DNA of 64,000 nucleotides, taken from the NCBI GenBank assembly GCA_951394045.1, contig OX595990.1:1240001-1304000 (forward strand). Reading direction: 5' to 3'. The translations under genes were made by a program, and so were the position numbers. The notes below the pieces were generated by a model that searched no databases, was not told the origin of the DNA, and saw only the letters and a program-made list of their open reading frames with translations. This document shows, piece by piece, positions 12,298 through 50,284 of this stretch. The DNA is from Nitzschia sp. DOCU1 (lineage: Eukaryota > Bacillariophyta > Bacillariophyceae > Bacillariales > Bacillariaceae). The stretch's first letter is position 1, and each line of letters starts with the position of its first letter.

Positions 12298-15200
12298 ATG
12301 GGCCGCTTTGGAGTTGCCCTTGCCATTTTGATCTTGACGGCGGACTTCGGTGGCGTCCATGCCTTTCACAATTTTCAGCCCAAGGCATTAAGCCACGTCC
12401 GGGAAAAGGTCATTACTCGGCGTAATTCTCAACAGGATGTACAACGACAGGTAGCGTCTTCCTCGTCCAGCCAAGAGTTTAATAATCAAAATGGAGAAAT
12501 CATCGGAGAGGCTTTAAACAGTGTGACCAATGCAGCACGGGATTCGATTGCCAGTGTGGTTCGAGACGAACCAGATACTGATGAAGCGAGGATTGCGATG
12601 AAGCAACGACAGGTCCAGCAGAGGACAAAAACTTATATCGTAACACTTCCTCTTGCGTCGTCGTCGATCATCGAAGAGAAAGCACAGGTTCTATCCATGG
12701 GAATGTTACTTTGTCAAGTCAACAAAGGACGCGAATTCGAAGGCCTGGAGCTGGATTTGGATTCTCTCGAGTTTCTGAAGAGTGATGCGATCGTAGAAGA
12801 CGAGAGTGTGGAGCGATTAGACGAACCGGCTCTCTCTCGGCGCATCAGTGGAGACTTTCAGGGCTTGGTGGTATCGTCGGTAACAGTAGAGGGTGCGGCA
12901 TGGACTGCTGGGGTTCGACCAGGAGACATTGTCAAAAGTACCTCAGCCACCGTGGGGTCCCAGCTATGGCCCAAGACTTCGTTGGAAGGCGTACGATCGG
13001 CTATTCAATCACGTAAGGCTGTTGCAGGAAGTATCCAATTGGAGCTCCAGAGACTTGGCGAGGCAGTGGACAATCAGTTCGAGCTGACTCTGGCACGTCC
13101 CATCGGGTTGGAGTTGAAAGGTAAGCATCCAGACTATATGTGTGCGCACAAAAGAGGAACCTCGTTGGCTCAGCCATTTGCAATTTGTAATGCTTGCGCA
13201 ACAGAGACGGAGGATGGTTATGTGGAAGTTACAGGTTTCACGCAGAATGCACCAACACTGGTGCAATATGCAGTGAAAGTGGGCGATCGAGTTGTAGCAG
13301 TGGATTCCTCGTTGGGAGACCGAATGTGGCCCGTGTCAACAGTAGACGGTGTGATCTCTGCGGTCACATCGCGGCTGCCTGGGCAACAAATCACATTTCG
13401 CTTTGAACGTCAAGGCACCATTGACGCTCCAATTACCCCCGAGGCTGCAACGATTCAATCAAAGAGAGTTGCCGCTGGAACTGCAGTGGCACCCGGAGTA
13501 GACCAGGCGGAGCTTTTGAAAAGATGCCGTGATGTCATCAAACGTTACACTGTGGTTGGCGAATCAACCAAGGAAAAATTTGTCAACAAGTATTCTGTAC
13601 CTGGCCTCGTAGCGGACAAAGTAATGGACGCGTTAGCAAGCGCTAGTGCCAAAGTGGATCCAATTACTTTATCGATGATCATGACCGCGTACCTTTCATG
13701 CCGACAGCCGCAAAAGGCGATCGACGCATTTGAAGCTGCTGTCGGAATTCACTCAAACGGTTCAGAGGCAGATGCTACGGTGGTTATTAAAGGAAAGAAC
13801 GATTCTGTTCTATCGCCCAACCTTGCTGCCCTGGATATTTATACGGCCAGTGCTCTACTCAAAGCACATGCGATGAAAGGCGATCTTTCCTCCGTACGGA
13901 GGGTGCTATCGGCTTTGGGCGGGCGGGATGATGCCTTAGTCGACGGTCTCAAAGTAGGAACCTGGCCAGGAACAGGGATGGGTGGGATACTTCAACCCAA
14001 CACCAGGTGCTACAATATTGCGATCTCTGCCCTTGCGGATTCGAAAACAGAGGAAGGTTTTGATCTCGCATTGCAAATCTTTAATACGATGGCGGAACCT
14101 AAACAACAAAGTGGTGTTGCACCCTCCAAGAGTTTGGTTACCTACAACACCATGCTCAACGGGCTTACCGGTTTCGGGCGATTCGACGAGGCAATCGATC
14201 TTTTCTATCATATGAAGAGATCTGGGATCATTCCCGACAAGTTCAGCTACACGTCGTTGGTCAAAGCCATAATAGCCAAGTCCGAGGGCGACATAGAAGA
14301 GTTCTTCTATGATATGAAGGAACAAGGGGTATCCCCAGATCCGATTCTCTTCAATACTGTCATTAAAGCACTTTGCGAACAGAAGAAGATTGTTGCGGCG
14401 AAGAAAATCGTCAGTCGAATGGAGGCTGCCGGAGTAACCCCTGACTCGATGACGTATGGCTTGTTGATGCAAGGTCTCATGGAGACTGGTAACCCCAGTG
14501 CCGCGCTCACGCTTTTCGAAACAGCTTGTGCTGACCGCCGAACTGTTGCTGTGACTGAAAATGTCTACCTTTACACAACTGCCATCAGTGCCGCGGCGGC
14601 GGTTGCTGACCATGAGAGAGCGCTGGAGCTTCTGTCCAGAATGAATGGCATGGGAATCCCTCCAAATTTGAAAACAATGACTGCGCTTGTAGGAGCCTGT
14701 CTAGCATCTGGCGCGCCCGACCTCGCCTATGATATTTATAAACGAATATCAAATCCCGATGGCTACGCGATGTTGCAAGGCATCCGAGCACTTTGCGGCT
14801 TCGGCAAGGCAAGAGATGCATTCGAGATGTTGACTACTCGACAAGCGAGAATTCTCTCTGGAAAGCAACTTATGTTTGCGTACCAAAGCATGATGGAAAG
14901 TTCCTTGCAACGCAGTGATTTCGAAACGGCGAAGATGGTATTTTCCCACATACTGAGTCAAGGCAATATTCCCTCGAAGTCCATCTACGAGACAGTCTTT
15001 GAAAGTCTCAAGCTTTTTCCGAAAAGGAAAGTGGGTGGACTGAGCCCGGTTGTGCACCTCGACGAAGAAAATTCGGCGAAGTTCGAGTTCCTGCTCTTTG
15101 TCTTGGATTCCGTGCTGGCTCGAAATCTTCCCTGTGAAGGACCGCTGTATTCTGCCATTCTATCTTATGGCTCGCAGCTTGGAGGTTTGCCACGGAAAAT

Positions 15201-15468
15201 GGCGTCGTTGCTGGTGTCTGCAAGGTCAGATACTGCAGACATAAAGATGATTGGTGACGCTCAACCGGAAGCGAATAATGTTGTCCACGGGTGGGAAGAA
15301 CTGTTTCTGCGATACGATGATCTACGAGATGAATTGGCAAAGGCGGCTGGCCCCGAAAATCTACCATCGCTCACAGTGAGGGTAAATTCTCGCGACGTGC
15401 CCAAGGTTCTTCGAGCTGAGAAAAGCCTTTCGTACGCAAAGCGGAAACCGAGGAGGCAAGAAGTTTAG
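12298..15468 (+). CDS. Plastid-targeted double-PDZ pentatricopeptide repeat protein
   Basis: 1056 aa, single exon. The N-terminus MGRFGVALAILILTADFGGV then HAFHNF is a signal peptide ending in an A-F junction, typical of diatom plastid precursors. Two PDZ-like domains follow: about 185-255 (VVSSVTVEGAAWTAGVRPGDIV) and 266-371 (VEVTGFTQNAP...YAVKVGDRVV). From about 505 to 820 there are at least seven PPR motifs, for example LVTYNTMLNGLTGFGRFDEA and ILFNTVIKALCEQKKIVAAK, ending GIIPD, GVSPD and GVTPD. The rest is helical. PPR proteins bind organellar RNA and act in processing, stability or translation; PDZ domains bind C-terminal peptides. I infer a plastid RNA factor tethered to a protein partner. 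No SMR or DYW domain is seen. Confidence 0.88.
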   Translation: MGRFGVALAILILTADFGGVHAFHNFQPKALSHVREKVITRRNSQQDVQRQVASSSSSQEFNNQNGEIIGEALNSVTNAARDSIASVVRDEPDTDEARIAMKQRQVQQRTKTYIVTLPLASSSIIEEKAQVLSMGMLLCQVNKGREFEGLELDLDSLEFLKSDAIVEDESVERLDEPALSRRISGDFQGLVVSSVTVEGAAWTAGVRPGDIVKSTSATVGSQLWPKTSLEGVRSAIQSRKAVAGSIQLELQRLGEAVDNQFELTLARPIGLELKGKHPDYMCAHKRGTSLAQPFAICNACATETEDGYVEVTGFTQNAPTLVQYAVKVGDRVVAVDSSLGDRMWPVSTVDGVISAVTSRLPGQQITFRFERQGTIDAPITPEAATIQSKRVAAGTAVAPGVDQAELLKRCRDVIKRYTVVGESTKEKFVNKYSVPGLVADKVMDALASASAKVDPITLSMIMTAYLSCRQPQKAIDAFEAAVGIHSNGSEADATVVIKGKNDSVLSPNLAALDIYTASALLKAHAMKGDLSSVRRVLSALGGRDDALVDGLKVGTWPGTGMGGILQPNTRCYNIAISALADSKTEEGFDLALQIFNTMAEPKQQSGVAPSKSLVTYNTMLNGLTGFGRFDEAIDLFYHMKRSGIIPDKFSYTSLVKAIIAKSEGDIEEFFYDMKEQGVSPDPILFNTVIKALCEQKKIVAAKKIVSRMEAAGVTPDSMTYGLLMQGLMETGNPSAALTLFETACADRRTVAVTENVYLYTTAISAAAAVADHERALELLSRMNGMGIPPNLKTMTALVGACLASGAPDLAYDIYKRISNPDGYAMLQGIRALCGFGKARDAFEMLTTRQARILSGKQLMFAYQSMMESSLQRSDFETAKMVFSHILSQGNIPSKSIYETVFESLKLFPKRKVGGLSPVVHLDEENSAKFEFLLFVLDSVLARNLPCEGPLYSAILSYGSQLGGLPRKMASLLVSARSDTADIKMIGDAQPEANNVVHGWEELFLRYDDLRDELAKAAGPENLPSLTVRVNSRDVPKVLRAEKSLSYAKRKPRRQEV

Positions 15469-15744: not shown

Positions 15745-16866
15745 CTATATTCCGAAGCCCTTCTTTTGTTTCCCCTTGTTCGGTTCTTTTTTCGCTTTGC
15801 CTTTTCTTTCGGCAAATCCAGATCCTTTGCTTTTCGATTCAATAGCTGGGAAAGCGCGAACGCTCTTGGCAATTTCTTCCGCCATGAAACGCTCTTCCGG
15901 GTTGTCGCTCACCATGCCTGGTATTTCAAGACAGTCATAAGTGAACTGGAGGGCATCGCGCTCGACTTGTGAAAGGTCCGGATGCCACAAACGAAACATC
16001 AAAATATATCGCATCTTGTCGCTTTCGTTTACTGCATCGTGAATGAGTGACGTATCAAACACCATAACTTTGCCATTGATCCACTCTCGAGTCTCATCGC
16101 CGATAGTGATTCGGCACTTATTCTCACCACTGTATGGAATGTCTACAGCGAGATGCGACGTGAGAACAAAATTTGTAAAGTCGCTGTGCTTCTTAATCTC
16201 AGAAGGCCCGCTCATGCTAGCAAAGAAGACTTCGGTGGCCGGAATGCCGCTGTCGTGCACAGCTCTGGATGTTTTGGGGAATAAATTTACGTTGACGGGG
16301 TCCCAAATTCCTCGATTCATTAGCACTAGTGTCTTCCAACCTTCCCCGTAGGAGCTGGCATCGTCCGTCAAAGCTCCTGCCCAAATATTATTGCCTTCTT
16401 GCTTCAATTTTTTCATATTCGAATTGACAGCATCAAATTCTTTCCGAATCTCAGGATATTTGGATTCAAGATATTGGGCCCAGTCAAAGTCTTCGGAATT
16501 CCAAAATGGAGAGATGGATAGACCTGGAACGTACGAATGACATTCTTGAACCATATCACTCTCATCTTCCTTTCCTGGTTCCCCGACATATTCCTTGTGA
16601 TAGTAATCCTTGTCCAATAATCGCCAAGATGCCAATACTCGTGTAATATCTTTCTCGTCGAAACGCTCCAAGAGTCCCTTCTCGACCATGCCCGCAAAGG
16701 TGTTTGGCGACAGCGGCACACTCGTATCTGGCATTGGATTTGCGGTGACACAGAGTCGATGCGAGCCTTGCTGCATCGGTGTCGACAACCTTGCCTGAAA
16801 AGCGGCGCATCCACCACACAGAACTGCCATGAGAACGGCTGTCGATTTATTCAACGCATTCCTCAT
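15745..16866 (-). CDS. Asp/Asn beta-hydroxylase-like 2-oxoglutarate oxygenase, plastid-targeted
   Basis: 373 aa, single exon. MRNALNKSTAVLMAVLCGGC-AAFQARL is a signal peptide with an A-F junction, so plastid import is predicted. The catalytic domain lies at about 195-310. It shows FFASMSGPSEIKKHSDFTN with the first iron-ligand His, CRITIGDETREWINGKVMVFD, and SLIHDAVNESDKMRYILMF with the second iron-ligand His and the 2-oxoglutarate Arg, ending RLWHPDLS. This is the pattern of the aspartyl/asparaginyl beta-hydroxylase family, which uses a two-His iron site. The substrate is unknown; animal ASPH hydroxylates EGF domains in the ER. The C-terminus is Lys/Gly-rich (KGKQKKGFGI). The 3' end lies 276 bp from the convergent PDZ-PPR gene. 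Confidence 0.85.
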   Translation of the reverse strand: MRNALNKSTAVLMAVLCGGCAAFQARLSTPMQQGSHRLCVTANPMPDTSVPLSPNTFAGMVEKGLLERFDEKDITRVLASWRLLDKDYYHKEYVGEPGKEDESDMVQECHSYVPGLSISPFWNSEDFDWAQYLESKYPEIRKEFDAVNSNMKKLKQEGNNIWAGALTDDASSYGEGWKTLVLMNRGIWDPVNVNLFPKTSRAVHDSGIPATEVFFASMSGPSEIKKHSDFTNFVLTSHLAVDIPYSGENKCRITIGDETREWINGKVMVFDTSLIHDAVNESDKMRYILMFRLWHPDLSQVERDALQFTYDCLEIPGMVSDNPEERFMAEEIAKSVRAFPAIESKSKGSGFAERKGKAKKEPNKGKQKKGFGI

Positions 16867-24936: not shown

Positions 24937-26979
24937 TTACAATTGTTCTTCTTGGCTCGGACCAGGGTTTGAATCGTTGTCCGCACTCGTGCCACCAAAG
25001 TTTGTCTCCCAGTATTGTGCCGAAAGTTTCTCGGGAATGATATCCGCATCTTGTTTGGCAGGCACTTGAATCATCAATTCATCCTGCTGCTGTTGCCATT
25101 GTACTTTATGACAGACGAGACAGAGTTTGTTCTTGATACGGTTACGAATCGATCGTTTCAGCTCGAGGTATTCTCGACGACAATTCATATCGCCCACCAC
25201 TGGATACCCTTGTTGACGCATCCAATAACATATACTGGCGGCGGAAGGATATTCAGTTTGAATACACACCGTGGACAATGAGGATGTCGTTCCATCGGCG
25301 ATTGTAGTGCGCTCCAAGGGGATAATGGTAATCATGGTGGATTCCTGGGGAGTGGCATCACTCGCGTTTTGCTGTTGCTGTTGCTCTCCTGCTGGATGCT
25401 TTCGTTTCTTGGGTTGCCACTTGCGTTGCATCGTCACTGTCATTTGATGCTTTGGGAACCAAGTATCTGGAACTCGTCCATGGACCATTGCCAACAAGGA
25501 ATGTTGAATCGGCGGAGATTGATGATTGTTGTTGTGATTCTGTGCCATGAGGACACACAAGCCAGAACAAGAAGTGTCCAGCTTGGAAAGACTTTCATAG
25601 ACAGCGCCTTTTTGCTGAGAGATTGTAAATTCCAGTGTCCCTGCAAAGGCTCCCTTGGTGCGCATTCCAGAAGGTTTATCGACCACCAAAAAGGGTTCGC
25701 GGCGGTACACAATGCCAAGCACACTTGCGTCGCCGTTGTTGAAAGCAGTTGTTGACGGATGACTACTACTCGCTTCACCCGCTGACTTCAGCACCACAAT
25801 CTTCATACCAGTTTTCAAGATACGGCTCGAATCCAATGCTGGTGTCCCATCAATGAGAATCCTTCCATTCTGAATGGCCGTTTCGGCTTGCTTTTTGGAG
25901 GTAGGTATGTGTTGTTGAAGAAACCAGCGTAGACGTTTTCCATCGCAATGAGAGTCGACTATCAGCTCGTGTTCCTTTTCACCGACCATAGCAGACGCGG
26001 GGCAAGAGACTCGTAGGTTGCTTCGGTTCTTCCCGAGGTCGGCGTTGTGGCTTGGCAAGGAAGTTCCATCCTGTTCGTCTGGGGCCGTGGTCGTCGAAAC
26101 CGATCCAACATTTCTCAATTCGGCTACTTGTGGCATCGCGGGGGCTTTCATGTGATGACTTAATTCGTCTTGGGAAGCAAATCTTGCCCCACATACGGAA
26201 CATGTGGCCTCGTTCCCTTCACTCTTCGTAGTAGTTTCATCCGCTCGTCCATGTGACGTTTCTGTCAATGTAGAAGAAAAGACATAGTGCATGGACCCCG
26301 CCACATTCATATCCGAGGATCCCCCATGATATCGTTCCCCAGCCGTCCGTCGATGTCGATAACCATATCGGCCCAGGAAATGTCGACTCCCCAGTTTGCC
26401 ATTGCGATACCGTCGGGGCGCCGCATGATCCAACGACGCTTCTGCGGGCTCTATATCCACATCCCATACTTGTGCAATGGGAACGGCTGTTGCAATCGTG
26501 CGCAATAATTGCAATCCTTGACGTTGGGCGGCCTCGTCCAATCGCCAGGTTTCTCGTTGCGTGCCACACAAACACACATGCACTAGCTTGGCAACTTGAC
26601 TGGCAGAATAGAGATAATGACACAAGAGCTGGTAGTGACGTGTGGCGTGTGCTGCTTCATCCTGGTCTAGAGAGGCTAATCCTAAATGGGGATGATGAAA
26701 CAAAATCACGTCCCACTTGTTAGGCTGTTGATGCAGTTGCGTGGCATCCACTCCAAACAAAATAGGAATGTTGAGACGTTCGAGTTCTAAAAGTGGCGCG
26801 TCCGGAAAGCACAACAGCAATTTTTCTTGGTTCAAATCCAATACCGAAGCCGTCAATTCCACATGGTTTCCATAGGCTCTGGCCAAGGCTAACGAGAATG
26901 TCAAATCACCATCGCCGACCGTCAAAATCTTCCAATTCTTTGTCATTGAAAAATCGTGAATGATTTTCTGTGTCTCCAC
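24937..26979 (-). CDS. Fusion of BMT5-like rRNA methyltransferase and RluA-type pseudouridine synthase
   Basis: 680 aa in one uninterrupted frame. Residues ~13-235 are a DUF2431/BMT5-like Rossmann methyltransferase: ILTVGDGDLTFSLALA (SAM motif), VILFHHPHLG and a YGYRHRRTAGE block. Residues 260-276 are a C2H2 finger (CSVCGARF...LSHH). Residues ~340-400 are an S4 RNA-binding domain (DGKRLRWFLQQHIPTSKKQA). From ~419 comes an RluA-like synthase: VYRREPFLVVDKPSGMRTKG, then YESLSKLDTSCSGLCVL with the catalytic Asp at 468, then the C-terminal QQGYPVVGDMNC block. Family knowledge: yeast BMT5 makes m3U in 25S rRNA and RluA enzymes convert U to pseudouridine. Inference: one protein makes two modifications or a combined one. 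The usual HRLD is SKLD, so pseudouridine activity needs proof. Confidence 0.85.
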   Translation of the reverse strand: METQKIIHDFSMTKNWKILTVGDGDLTFSLALARAYGNHVELTASVLDLNQEKLLLCFPDAPLLELERLNIPILFGVDATQLHQQPNKWDVILFHHPHLGLASLDQDEAAHATRHYQLLCHYLYSASQVAKLVHVCLCGTQRETWRLDEAAQRQGLQLLRTIATAVPIAQVWDVDIEPAEASLDHAAPRRYRNGKLGSRHFLGRYGYRHRRTAGERYHGGSSDMNVAGSMHYVFSSTLTETSHGRADETTTKSEGNEATCSVCGARFASQDELSHHMKAPAMPQVAELRNVGSVSTTTAPDEQDGTSLPSHNADLGKNRSNLRVSCPASAMVGEKEHELIVDSHCDGKRLRWFLQQHIPTSKKQAETAIQNGRILIDGTPALDSSRILKTGMKIVVLKSAGEASSSHPSTTAFNNGDASVLGIVYRREPFLVVDKPSGMRTKGAFAGTLEFTISQQKGAVYESLSKLDTSCSGLCVLMAQNHNNNHQSPPIQHSLLAMVHGRVPDTWFPKHQMTVTMQRKWQPKKRKHPAGEQQQQQNASDATPQESTMITIIPLERTTIADGTTSSLSTVCIQTEYPSAASICYWMRQQGYPVVGDMNCRREYLELKRSIRNRIKNKLCLVCHKVQWQQQQDELMIQVPAKQDADIIPEKLSAQYWETNFGGTSADNDSNPGPSQEEQL

Positions 26980-38243: not shown

Positions 38244-39533
38244 ATGACGACATTGAACTCCTTCTCCATCTCCAACCTCAAAGTGGTCGACGAGGCCAAA
38301 GCGGGGGTTCCTCTCCTCACGGGCATTGGATTCTTTGATCACATGTTGGATCAATTCAACTCTCATGCTCAAATCGGCGTTGGTCTCAAAGTGGATTTAA
38401 CAGGCAGCAGTGACGATAATACAGAGAACAAGAATCGTTGGGCCACTACGAATCAAGTGCAATTGTGTGAGGCAGTGGGCACGGCACTCGGTGCGGCCAT
38501 GTATATGGACTTGAAGTTGGAGTCGCAGCCGGATGACGCGGAATCGAGATTTTGTTGCCCTTTGGACGAGGCGCTGGTAGAATGCGTCATTCGAAAATCG
38601 CAAGGGTCAGGAGGTTTACAGTACAATCTTGCACCCTATGGAAGTTACCCCAAAGGCAAGGGTCGGAGCAAGATTGGACAATGGGAGACTTTTTCCATGG
38701 AAACTTTCTGGGCATCTTTGGCAACAAACGCCAAGTTGGATGTATCCTTTCAAAAGATTCGAGGAAACAATGGGCATCACATTGTAGAATCGTCCTTCAA
38801 GGCCTTTTCACGAGCCATGCGACAATACTTGGATTCTCCCACAATCTATGATGTGGGGAGTGAAAATGATCAGGCCAGTGTGGCACTGGCACGTGAGGCC
38901 AAAGTGGAGCGATCCACCAAAGAAACGTCCATTTCCGTCCATTTGCTACTCAATGGATCTAGTCAAGATACCTTGGTAGAAACGGGCATTCCCGTCCTGG
39001 ACGAATTCTTTACGGTGCTTGCACAACATGCCAATATGACTTTGAAAATTAAATGCAGTGGAGACCTCTGGGTGGATGATCACCATTCCGCCGAAGATGT
39101 GAGCATCGCCGTGGGACAATGTTTGACCGAAGCGTTGGGTACCAAGGCCGGGTTGAATCGCATGGGACTCGCCAGCGCACAGTGTGGTGAAGCAAACGTA
39201 GAAGTGACCATGGATTTGAGCAATCGCCCCTATCTGGGCCATGATTTACACGAAACACTGAGTCAAAACGAATACGTGGATCCTGATACCAATGGCGGAA
39301 AGGCTCCTCTGTGTTGTGAAATGTTTGAGCATGTCCTTGACTCGCTGGTCATGAATGGTCGAATGACGGTGCACATTGTTGAAACAAAATCGTCAAGTGG
39401 CGCACCGTCGTCTGTGAGGGACACGGTCATGGCAACAGCCGAAGCCTTTGGAAAAGCCTTGGGCGTTTGTGCCATGGTGGACAAACGACGTGCTGGACAA
39501 ACCGCTAGCAGCAAGGGAACTCTGTCCGTATAA
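38244..39533 (+). CDS. Double-length imidazoleglycerol-phosphate dehydratase with split active site
   Basis: 429 aa, no intron or stop; the ATG at 38244 has good context. IGPD makes imidazole-acetol phosphate in histidine synthesis; usual length ~195 aa. Here two IGPD units are fused. Unit 1 (about 7-199) has TGIGFFDHM (His33), PLDE and GHHIVESSFK (His178, His179, Glu182, Lys186), but its first HHxxE slot reads TTNQV and the SGRP and EH motifs are gone. Unit 2 (about 219-429) has RSTKET (223-228), DDHHSAED (His280, His281, Glu284), GLNRMG, SNRPYL (Arg328), EMFEHV (His363) and the terminal SSKGTL, but FFDHM reads VLDEF and its second HHxxE is SSVRD. The losses are complementary, so a full site must combine both units. 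No targeting peptide is visible. Confidence 0.92.
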   Translation: MTTLNSFSISNLKVVDEAKAGVPLLTGIGFFDHMLDQFNSHAQIGVGLKVDLTGSSDDNTENKNRWATTNQVQLCEAVGTALGAAMYMDLKLESQPDDAESRFCCPLDEALVECVIRKSQGSGGLQYNLAPYGSYPKGKGRSKIGQWETFSMETFWASLATNAKLDVSFQKIRGNNGHHIVESSFKAFSRAMRQYLDSPTIYDVGSENDQASVALAREAKVERSTKETSISVHLLLNGSSQDTLVETGIPVLDEFFTVLAQHANMTLKIKCSGDLWVDDHHSAEDVSIAVGQCLTEALGTKAGLNRMGLASAQCGEANVEVTMDLSNRPYLGHDLHETLSQNEYVDPDTNGGKAPLCCEMFEHVLDSLVMNGRMTVHIVETKSSSGAPSSVRDTVMATAEAFGKALGVCAMVDKRRAGQTASSKGTLSV

Positions 39534-47400: not shown

Positions 47401-50284
47401 TGAAAATATGGCCTGAGGAATTCTGTTGAGACCCACACCCCGCCGTCGTCGTTGGCTTCGTTTTTACCCCGAACCAGGGCATGTGCAGTCGGTATCATGT
47501 ATTTACGGATCCCCAATTTTCTGCGATTTAGTCGGTCAGATATCTGAGCGTCATGGAAACACAATCTTTGATAGGCAATTAAGAAGTTGGGAATGATGAG
47601 TGATACAAGCTCTTCACAAAATTCCAGCTGCCGACAGCAAATACTTACTCAGAAAGTATCCGGAACATTTTTTTCCGTTCGTCAGTGACATCGCCCAGAA
47701 CTTCTCCCGGGTTGGGGCAGTTTTGGAGGAGCTGCTCTCGTACCACTATGGCATCCTTAGCCGTCATCGCGAGATAATCCTGATCAACATAGTACATATT
47801 GTAAGCATCCTGGCTGCCAGAGGGCGTCGACGATTTTTCCTTCCTGTTGTTAGCATCCATTGGCTCTGGGACTGCTTCGGGATCGTAGCTGCACGTCGGC
47901 CCATCAGGGAGCAGCTTGACGTTTTCATCGTTGAATTCAAACCACATGCCCGTCAACCAGTCCAGTGCCTCCGCCACGTAGTGGCCACTATAAGCAGAGT
48001 TGCCTTGGTGTCTCATGATGGCACAAAGGAAGTATTTCTTTGTCGTTGCACCTGTTTGTACAGCAAGTGTCCTGGGCAGAAGAACCTTGTCGGAAACTTT
48101 CTTTTTTACAAACTTTTCTCGGTCAAACACATAGCGGGAGAGTTGAACATTGAGGACAGGAGGGAGCTCGGCCAACTTGAGACTTCGTTTGGCGTCTCGC
48201 TTGCAGTCGCATTGGCTGCAGAAATATCGGTTTTCACCATCCAAAATCTCAGTGCAAAGGTACTGATCCAAGCAATACTGAACATCGGTGTCGACGTTCT
48301 TGCCTGCAGAGACGGCAAACGCCTCTTCGATGGTACCCGTCTTCTTTGCGTTGTCGCCCTTGGGTGGCTTCACAATGGGGAGATTGAGATCCATGAATCC
48401 CTCACTTCGCTCCGACGTCGAACCACAGGTCATGCAAACAGTCTCATAGGTAGTCAAACCATGAAAGATCTTATTCAGCAGGTTCCTCAAATCGCCCTCA
48501 CATTGTTGAAACGACTCGTCCATTCGATCGAACAAAAGTCTAGCAAATTCGTTGGGATCTTGTTGCTCGTGATGTTCCAACCCCAAGGAATTGGAAAAGT
48601 CCAAAGTTGTAAGCTTACAGTGTCCACCCAAGAACATTTCTGCCAGTAGCTTCTGAAGTTTGCTCATGACGGAATTCATTTGGTGACTTTCATCGACCAT
48701 GCGCCAGGAAAAAATTCCATTCAAAAAGGTCAGATTTTGCGCCAAACACTGAAGCTGGGTATTCAGATAACACGTCGCACCCAAATTCGATATCCCCGGT
48801 GGCATGGAAAGAGAGGTACGATCGTCTGCAAGGACTTTCTCATCCGCCACAGGATTGACGAATTGTAAATGCTGGTGCCAATCCTTGAGAATTTTCATGT
48901 ACTTATCAACAGTCAAACGCTCGCCATCGTCCTCGTCGACCGACAAAGGTTCCACCCGCAGCATTCGGTGAATATAAGAACGCAGTGAAGCAGTGTCAAC
49001 TTCCACAGAATGACGTGCTGCTTTGAGGGCGTCGCGGGTTTCTTCGGCAAACGTAATGGCGCTCAATTCTTGTTGGGGAATTGCAGACGTTGTGAAGATA
49101 TCCGCTGGATTCTCGTCCGTCACAGCATTTGTGCTAGCCTTGAGCAAAGGAGAACTCCAAGGTACACTGCTTGAATTGGCTTTCTTTTTCCGGGCAATGG
49201 GAGTTTCTCGGTTGTCTCCGTTAAATTCAAAAGGATCCGAGCTGTCGCTATCTCGTGCAGGATCCCTAAACACGCTGCGTTTTCTGGGCGTTGGCTTTAC
49301 TTCTTCGATATCCACAATTTCCACGGGTGACGACTTCTTATTGGCTGTTGTTGCTCCTGAAGAAGAAATGGATTCTCCTACCACTTGAACTTCATCATCG
49401 TCATCGTTTTCCTTCCTCTTCTTGATTACCTTCCCCGCGGCCGTCTTTAAGAACTTTGCTACCGTCGGTGGTGAACCTTTGCGCTCGGGTGGTAAGGCTT
49501 CATTCAGTGCGCGACATCGCTCTTCCATGACATCATTGACGACCCCACCAAGAGTAGCTAAACACAGTGGGTTGAAATCGCAAGGACACGCAAAATCCTT
49601 CCCTTCTGGTCGAACTCCTACAGTAAAGAGTTCCTGCACGGTAGTCTCCTTCTCGTCACTGGACGACAAGCTACGCTTTCGCTTTTTGTTATTGGAGGCT
49701 GATTTCTTGGCTCGTTCCTCCAAGAGCGTTCGTGTCCACTCTTTCAAGGACGGACAAGCACAATTGCCAACGTGACGAACCATGACCTGAGGATCCAACA
49801 GTGCTGGATCTTCGAGAGGTTCCGGTGGTAGCGTCCCCCATTCACACGCATTCCATGGTGTCGTAATGGTCGTACCAATCTCCAATGACTGTTCTCGTGC
49901 CATGATTCCTCGGTAGGGATCTTGATGAATTTCATACTCGGCCACATTCATGAGATTTTCCAGTTCTAGCTCTCCCGGAGCTGGCGTCGTACTGCTAGAT
50001 GACTTGGCAGTACTAGCAGTCGTACTTTCCACCGAAGTTCCACTTCGTAGGCGGCGTCGACCCGACTCTACCGCCTGGGTGGTCGTTTCTAGGACGGACT
50101 TGACCGCCAGTTGGAGGCGCTTGCCAGTTTGAGCCAGAAACGACCCTTCTTCAAACCCCGATTGAAATTGTTTTAAACAGTCTAGTGCTTGTTCGGCAGC
50201 TTCCACGGCACTGTCTCGCGAAAAGGCGTCATCATTCTGGCTGGGCGGATCCACTTCTACGGGAGAGTCCATAGACGACGACAT
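44431..50284 (-). CDS. USP48-like ubiquitin-specific protease, three exons
   Basis: Exons 47649..50284, 46736..47565 and 44431..46676; 1903 aa. The USP domain starts at about 495: PPGISNLGATCYLNTQLQ (catalytic Cys505), CMTCGS and YFCSQC zinc-ribbon pairs, and AYSGHYVAEAL (catalytic His768) followed by FEFNDENV. The DUSP-like C-terminal modules match the USP48 pattern of C-x-H-x repeats: FLCNHRYMCP, NLFCQECSASY, and across intron 2 ITC|SHGNCNSMYKKSQVR. Intron 1 (83 nt) uses a GTAAGT donor and an AAG acceptor; intron 2 is only 59 nt. USP48 in animals is nuclear, cleaving ubiquitin from H2A and signalling proteins; Lys/Arg clusters at about 200 and 285-295 suggest a nuclear location here. The intron 2 join is strongly supported; intron 1 less so. 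Confidence 0.85.

Follow-up and report, generated by a model that had tools for sequence, protein, structure and literature searches.

How does an imidazoleglycerol-phosphate dehydratase (IGPD) build its dimanganese active site when the only gene found for it encodes two IGPD units, each with half of the catalytic set? The question is raised by the window analyzed here, a stretch of 64,000 nucleotides from the diatom Nitzschia sp. DOCU1 (GenBank assembly GCA_951394045.1, contig OX595990.1, positions 1,240,001 to 1,304,000 of the forward strand), which harbors an intronless, double-length IGPD gene (38244–39533, + strand; 429 amino acid residues plus stop). Comparison with related proteins revealed that this gene encodes a real, conserved and mechanistically telling IGPD variant. 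As judged from sequence, it very probably has a composite single-chain site, in which the two kinds of neighbor that meet in the IGPD homo-oligomer are now joined as halves of a single polypeptide.

The initial annotation of the window had recognized two IGPD units in a single 429-codon frame, and this description holds: the open frame is uninterrupted, and the Pfam IGPD family (PF00475) matches the protein twice (203.2 bits in total versus a cut-off of 27), its threshold being passed by the whole protein and also by each unit singly. In the genome search both units spanned the whole 144-position profile (E values: unit 1, 2.6e-22; unit 2, 4.3e-34), and the IGPD fold was recognized in each of them. 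Thirteen NCBIfam HisB equivalog models matched as well, every one below its cut-off (the closest with 181.5 versus 189). When the assembly (52.08 Mb, 63 contigs) was searched in six frames, two IGPD matches were obtained, both inside the 38244–39533 frame, and a bacterial IGPD query, followed up to an E value of 10, matched only stretches of the same frame. A separate normal IGPD, which the initial annotation had named as grounds for giving up its interpretation, was found by neither of these searches of the assembly, although a copy lost in gaps is conceivable. HisG and HisD were found elsewhere in the assembly.

Division of the active-site residues between the units

According to the Acanthamoeba structure, the active site of canonical IGPD lies between three subunits, A, A′ and C (PMC6029752), and the Arabidopsis (PMC4509728) and Medicago (PMC10978614) papers describe a three-chain site likewise. 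In the Acanthamoeba enzyme, the ligands of the first manganese (Mn1) are H67 from A′ and H40, H162 and E166 from A, and those of the second (Mn2) are H66, E70 and H138 from A′ and H163 from A; chain A also gives K170, H48 and D101, the latter steadying the metal-bound water, whereas chain C gives R92, R114, S191 and K193 (PMC6029752). Motifs served to transfer these residues to the double protein; the Acanthamoeba numbers are 7 or 8 lower than the Arabidopsis numbers used hereafter. Conservation was assessed over 200 aligned double-length proteins (doubles), window protein included, or over a final table of 198 rows, from which P0242 and P0243 were left out because of an apparent frame error in their gene models close to Asp108.

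Unit 1 (residues 1–197; 38244–38834, + strand, as all features below) keeps the chain-A half of the active site, with the C-terminal loop (C-loop) absent and the N-terminal strand short. It retains D32-H33-M34…Q37…H41 (Arabidopsis H47, Q51 and H55; 38337–38366), with Q37 present in 200/200 doubles, D108-E109 (38565–38570), where Asp108 is the chain-A acid holding the Mn2 water, and N176-x-H178-H179-x-x-E182-x-x-x-K186 (38769–38801), the second HHxxE together with Lys177. Over the 198 rows, His47 is kept in 195 (three gaps), while His55, Asp108, His169, His170, Glu173 and Lys177, the last four corresponding to H178, H179, E182 and K186, are kept in 198 each. By contrast, the first HHxxE is lost, its remnant at residues 64–70 (38433–38453) reading NRWATTN, and the position of the Mn2 ligand His145 is occupied by T154 (38703–38705; His in 7/198 rows). 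Also missing are RxTKET, SGRP (QGSG instead) and the His of the EH motif (METFW instead). At the remaining unit 1 equivalents, His73 was found in 40 rows, His74 in one, Glu77 in one (10 gaps), Arg99 in 32 (25 gaps) and Arg121 in two (71 gaps), and a Glu occurs in 13 of 200 doubles at the place loosely aligned with the catalytic Glu21.

Unit 2 (residues 215–429; 38886–39530) follows an ordered linker (residues 198–214; 38835–38885), for which AlphaFold2 gave block means of 95 in the predicted local distance difference test (pLDDT) over residues 191–220, and keeps the A′ and C parts of the site. These comprise R223-S-T-K-E227-T (38910–38927), with E227 being the catalytic Glu21 (200/200), the first HHxxE as D278-D-H280-H281-x-x-E284-D (39075–39098), the phosphate-binding Arg99 of chain C as R306 (39159–39161), the chain-C Arg121 within N327-R328-P329 (39222–39230), the Mn2 ligand His145 as H363 (39330–39332), and the C-loop S422-S-K424-G-T-L-S (39507–39527) with Ser199 and Lys201 of chain C. 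His73, His74 and Glu77 (H280, H281 and E284), His145, Arg99 and Arg121 (R328) are kept in 198/198 rows, and Ser199 and Lys201 in 197 (one gap). What unit 2 has lost is the complement: His47 is replaced by E254 in the remnant of the LDHM…H motif (residues 252–262; 38997–39029), and in the remnant of the second HHxxE and its Lys (residues 390–398; 39411–39437) His169, His170, Glu173 and Lys177 are kept in none of the 198 rows. His47 persists in two rows of unit 2, His55 in 11 and Asp108 in five (six gaps), the Asp108 equivalent being set at position 315 from the gapless match of LDEA in unit 1 with CGEA in unit 2. The window protein is exceptional at His55, since it belongs to the 11 rows whose unit 2 retains this His (H262).

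The motif reading thus agrees with the initial annotation, which had credited unit 1 with FFDHM, the second HHxxE and its Lys, and unit 2 with exactly the motifs lost from unit 1 (RxTKET, the first HHxxE, SGRP and EH) at the expense of FFDHM and the second HHxxE. The reciprocity extends beyond that account to Asp108, kept by unit 1 alone, and to the C-terminal loop, kept by unit 2 alone. The further proposal that each unit keeps the residues it donates to one shared site finds support in the chain assignments given in PMC6029752: all 15 of the 15 labelled residues fall as the chains predict, unit 1 having the A set and unit 2 the sets of A′ and C, each residue in 195–198 of 198 rows. Neither unit carries both (D/N)xHHxxE motifs within its approximately 200 residues, as unit 1 has the second only and unit 2 the first only; with both units summed, the polypeptide contains the full metal-ligand and catalytic set. 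Random reciprocal loss would be estimated to give this split in about 1 case in 128 (2 in 2^8, for approximately eight independent motif blocks), and conservation over the two deep clades described below is stronger evidence than this estimate.

Conservation and ancestry of the double protein

Three protein searches, with the window protein, its unit-2 half, which pointed to more distant doubles, and an alignment of seven of the latter as queries, were followed for the best 120 of 2,346, 123 and 1,773 matches, respectively; doubles therefore occur in at least the lineages named here. Of the 121 rows obtained with the window protein (query included; best 120 of 2,346), 118 are at least 395 amino acids long, i.e., of double length, and the seven-double alignment contributed 85 new rows among the best 120 of 1,773, 82 of them reaching the same length. 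The VIA list consists mostly of unit 2 and is hence no test of unit 1. Other diatoms, where the initial annotation had suggested looking for double-length IGPD, and lineages beyond the diatoms together yielded at least 199 more doubles, and the order of units is identical in 199 doubles other than the window protein. With regard to the eight metal ligands, reciprocity is perfect in 150 of the 200 doubles.

A control of 87 single-unit IGPD rows was assembled from 77 of 80 prokaryote loci (three short translations being left out), nine proteins and Arabidopsis. In 87/87 of them Glu21, His47, His55, His73, His74, Glu77, Arg99, Arg121, His169, His170, Glu173, Lys177, Ser199 and Lys201 all stand in one and the same unit, as does Asp108 in 84/87, with the proviso that the 77 loci were retrieved by the first-HHxxE pattern and that the conservation of this motif among them is by selection. 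The His145 position is variable in the same set (Glu in 58, His in 26 and Asp in three) and was for this reason excluded as an all-or-none control. On these alignments, the reciprocal split is not a matter of chance, because the kept residues stand in 195–198 of 198 doubles, while all 87 single-unit proteins hold both sets (14 residues) in one unit.

Named diatoms among the matches listed are Cylindrotheca, Nitzschia, Pseudo-nitzschia (Psemu1 code), Seminavis, Thalassiosira, Skeletonema, Cyclotella and Mediolabrus, along with further abbreviated diatom names (e.g., Chaet...), and the matches listed also include a dinoflagellate double from Effrenium voratum (P0304). Eight rows of the best 120 from the window-protein search bear mmetsp tags, which we take to denote a transcriptome project; doubles would therefore be transcribed in relatives. 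The tree of 198 doubles consists of a 142-row clade, the named members of which are diatoms, a 54-row second clade with E. voratum as named member and with clusters holding up to 351 member sequences, and two long rows apart. The window protein is nested among Cylindrotheca and Nitzschia names. Within this sequence sample, the double IGPD is no diatom oddity and forms at least two deep clades.

In a second tree, built from 20 single-unit proteins and the separated units of 16 of the 200 doubles, unit 1 and unit 2 sequences each occupied one side of a branch (100/100) and both contained diatom and second-clade members; the doubled gene therefore either predates the split of the clades or passed between them. 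The free unit tree left unit 1 on a long branch apart, not joined with unit 2, and placed unit 2 beside a yeast sequence (90/92). Such a topology speaks for an origin by fusion of two unlike IGPDs (for example, of endosymbiont and host) instead of tandem duplication, which would leave the present mechanism unchanged. However, a joint clade of both units was not rejected (p-AU of 0.372 in the approximately unbiased test), and the long branch makes the placement of unit 1 unsafe. We consider a fusion origin quite possible but do not favor it.

Sixteen proteins consisting of unit 2 only (P0122–P0137) were evaluated as separate genes and rejected as such, being read instead as intron-split or cut pieces of double genes: in nine of them the sequence opens with, or very close to, the unit-1 stretch ESSFKAFSRAL, whereas the remaining seven begin further on, in the linker or at unit 2. 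In P0124–P0126, P0128, P0129, P0131, P0133, P0134 and P0137 an intron inside the unit-1 HHxxE seemingly splits the gene; with such an apparent split, gene callers give a unit-2 protein starting with ESSFKAF in some relatives.

Proposed composite site and its alternatives

In the composite site, unit 1 would act as chain A, supplying the DHM His, the second HHxxE with its Lys, and the Asp by which the metal-bound water is held. Unit 2 would act as both A′ and C, supplying the first HHxxE together with the His of EH, the catalytic Glu, the two phosphate-binding Arg residues and the closing C-loop. Each contact between unit 1 and unit 2 would then combine a complete dimanganese site with a mirror-side site stripped of metal ligands, making every chain a pseudo-heterodimer in which one dimanganese site is live and the other dead. 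We infer both that the residues meet as in canonical IGPD and that the protein is enzymatically active. The active form would be oligomeric, because C must be unit 2 of another chain, and a lone chain of unit 1 and unit 2 should not be active, as the site needs three chains. AlphaFold2 predicted a fixed arrangement of the two units (predicted template-modelling scores, pTM, of 0.91 and 0.90).

The likeliest assembly, which we favor by a small measure, would be a cage of twelve chains with twelve live and 12 dead sites; the halving of the site number would follow if the particle uses the known canonical lattice. A tetrahedral cage of 12 double chains, with alternating corner trimers of unit 1 and unit 2, 12 live sites and 12 dead sites that, relieved of catalysis in diatoms and the second clade, serve as regulator pockets, is a tentative and rather doubtful arrangement, and a regulatory use of the dead sites is speculation.

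Several points weigh against the composite site or the assembly outlined above. Reciprocity of the eight metal ligands is imperfect in 50 of the 200 doubles, 45 carrying one relic, two carrying two, and three having a gap at His47, one of which also carries two relics. If the step from A to C is a 3-fold one, the number of live sites would be no more than 8 of 12, and the A/A′ contact may be absent from the AlphaFold2 models. In addition, PMC3901274 reports two IGPD open reading frames in Phaeodactylum tricornutum, which could be two doubles or the halves of one, so reliance on one gene need not be universal in diatoms. Finally, a figure legend in PMC4509728 prints ‘Glu21A and Glu173A’, thereby locating the catalytic Glu21 on chain A; unit 1 should therefore hold this residue, but lacks it. 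Half-versus-half profile alignment of ordinary IGPD paired Glu21 with Glu109 and Lys20 with Asp108 (probability 94.7 and 96.0). Since Glu109, the repeat equivalent of Glu21, adjoins Asp108, which works on the chain of the second HHxxE, the pseudo-2-fold relation would put Glu21 together with the first HHxxE of its own chain, on A′, and its invariance in unit 2 (200/200) points to A′ or C. From these sequence relations we argue for Glu21 belonging to A′ or C, contrary to the legend as printed in PMC4509728.

An enzyme formed by unit 2, with unit 1 carried along as a degenerate passenger in a structural or regulatory role, would agree with the faster divergence of unit 1, whose mean identity to the window protein is 51%, versus 60% for unit 2 (197 rows), unit 2 having the higher identity in 190 of the 197. 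However, unit 2 is devoid of its own second-HHxxE metal ligands in 198/198 rows, and unit 1 holds precisely those in 198/198; a passenger is not expected to retain just the missing metal ligands, which makes this explanation improbable. Slightly less credit still is given to both units being dead for IGPD chemistry and serving another role, e.g., as a moonlighting metal protein: the scores below the cut-offs of all 13 matching NCBIfam HisB models are in its favor, but the full metal, phosphate and acid-base set is present across the two units in nearly all 200 doubles, and the searches of the assembly, in which HisG and HisD are present, gave no further IGPD. An assembly or annotation artefact joining two loci, the misassembly against which the initial annotation had cautioned, is hardly credible in view of the single open frame, of a protein (P0002) on a 1,624-base contig from another assembly, 100% identical to the 429-residue protein over its full length, and of the 199 doubles from several sources with the same layout and unit order. 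The passenger unit, the other function and the misassembly were set aside on this evidence in favor of the composite site.

Two arginines of unit 1 for which no canonical counterpart was seen are R102 (38547–38549), conserved in 114/118 rows, and R141 (38664–38666), invariant in 62 rows; they possibly belong to the contact between the units or to the dead site. At residue 308 (39165–39167) most relatives read NRMW, with Trp in 104/118 rows, versus the canonical NRFG, and the window protein keeps Gly. The neighboring frames of the window encode a PPR-repeat protein (12298–15468), an Asp/Asn beta-hydroxylase (15745–16866), a BMT5-like methyltransferase with S4 (24937–26979) and a ubiquitin C-terminal hydrolase (47645–50284), and have no evident tie to histidine synthesis.

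Implications and comparison with known systems

If the composite site is correct, the double IGPD would be a natural case in which the symmetry of a homo-oligomer has been broken by placing two complementary halves on the same chain, and this state would be retained both in the sampled diatoms and outside them. It would also offer single-chain control over which site is built, because an alteration of either unit would affect the live site from that unit's side only. IGPD is a studied herbicide target, and its algal version would possess half as many sites per unit. Furthermore, the reason why IGPD needs a 24-unit shell, called unclear in PMC10978614, would become testable, and regulator pockets, if real, would provide IGPD with a form of control which, according to PMC10978614, is unreported for this enzyme.

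The double IGPD is undescribed in the literature searched, which covered titles and abstract openings and left subscription papers and preprints mostly outside. The available text of PMC3901274 lists one IGPD gene for T. pseudonana besides the two open reading frames of P. tricornutum and does not mention a double unit, and PMC7284861 reports HHxxE in both half-domains of all 535 aligned IGPDs. Doubles may have been missed by surveys in part because of length filters; the IGPD sequence network of PMC10978614, for example, was limited to 180–390 residues.

Canonical IGPD (PF00475; plant HISN5, yeast HIS3, bacterial HisB) is a homo-24-mer of 432 symmetry with 24 dimanganese sites. The double protein shares with it the fold of the unit and, in total, the metal, phosphate and acid-base residues, but differs in having two unlike units per chain, each with half of the catalytic set, and a predicted one site per two units. 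In mammalian adenylyl cyclase, the tandem homologous units C1 and C2 share one live and one degenerate site. This unrelated protein works alike, except that its site is complete with two units and does not call for a third chain as that of IGPD does. The bifunctional HisB, in which histidinol-phosphatase is fused to IGPD (PMC10978614), is likewise a fusion with an IGPD unit; its partner, however, is a different enzyme, while the window protein joins two IGPD units, neither of them complete. Gene elongation has also occurred earlier in this same protein, as the ancient repeat of two IGPD half-domains is still visible. According to PMC7284861, that half-domain duplication preceded the last universal common ancestor and made the ordinary unit. 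The doubling of the whole unit is a later event, observed in diatoms, a dinoflagellate and further relatives.
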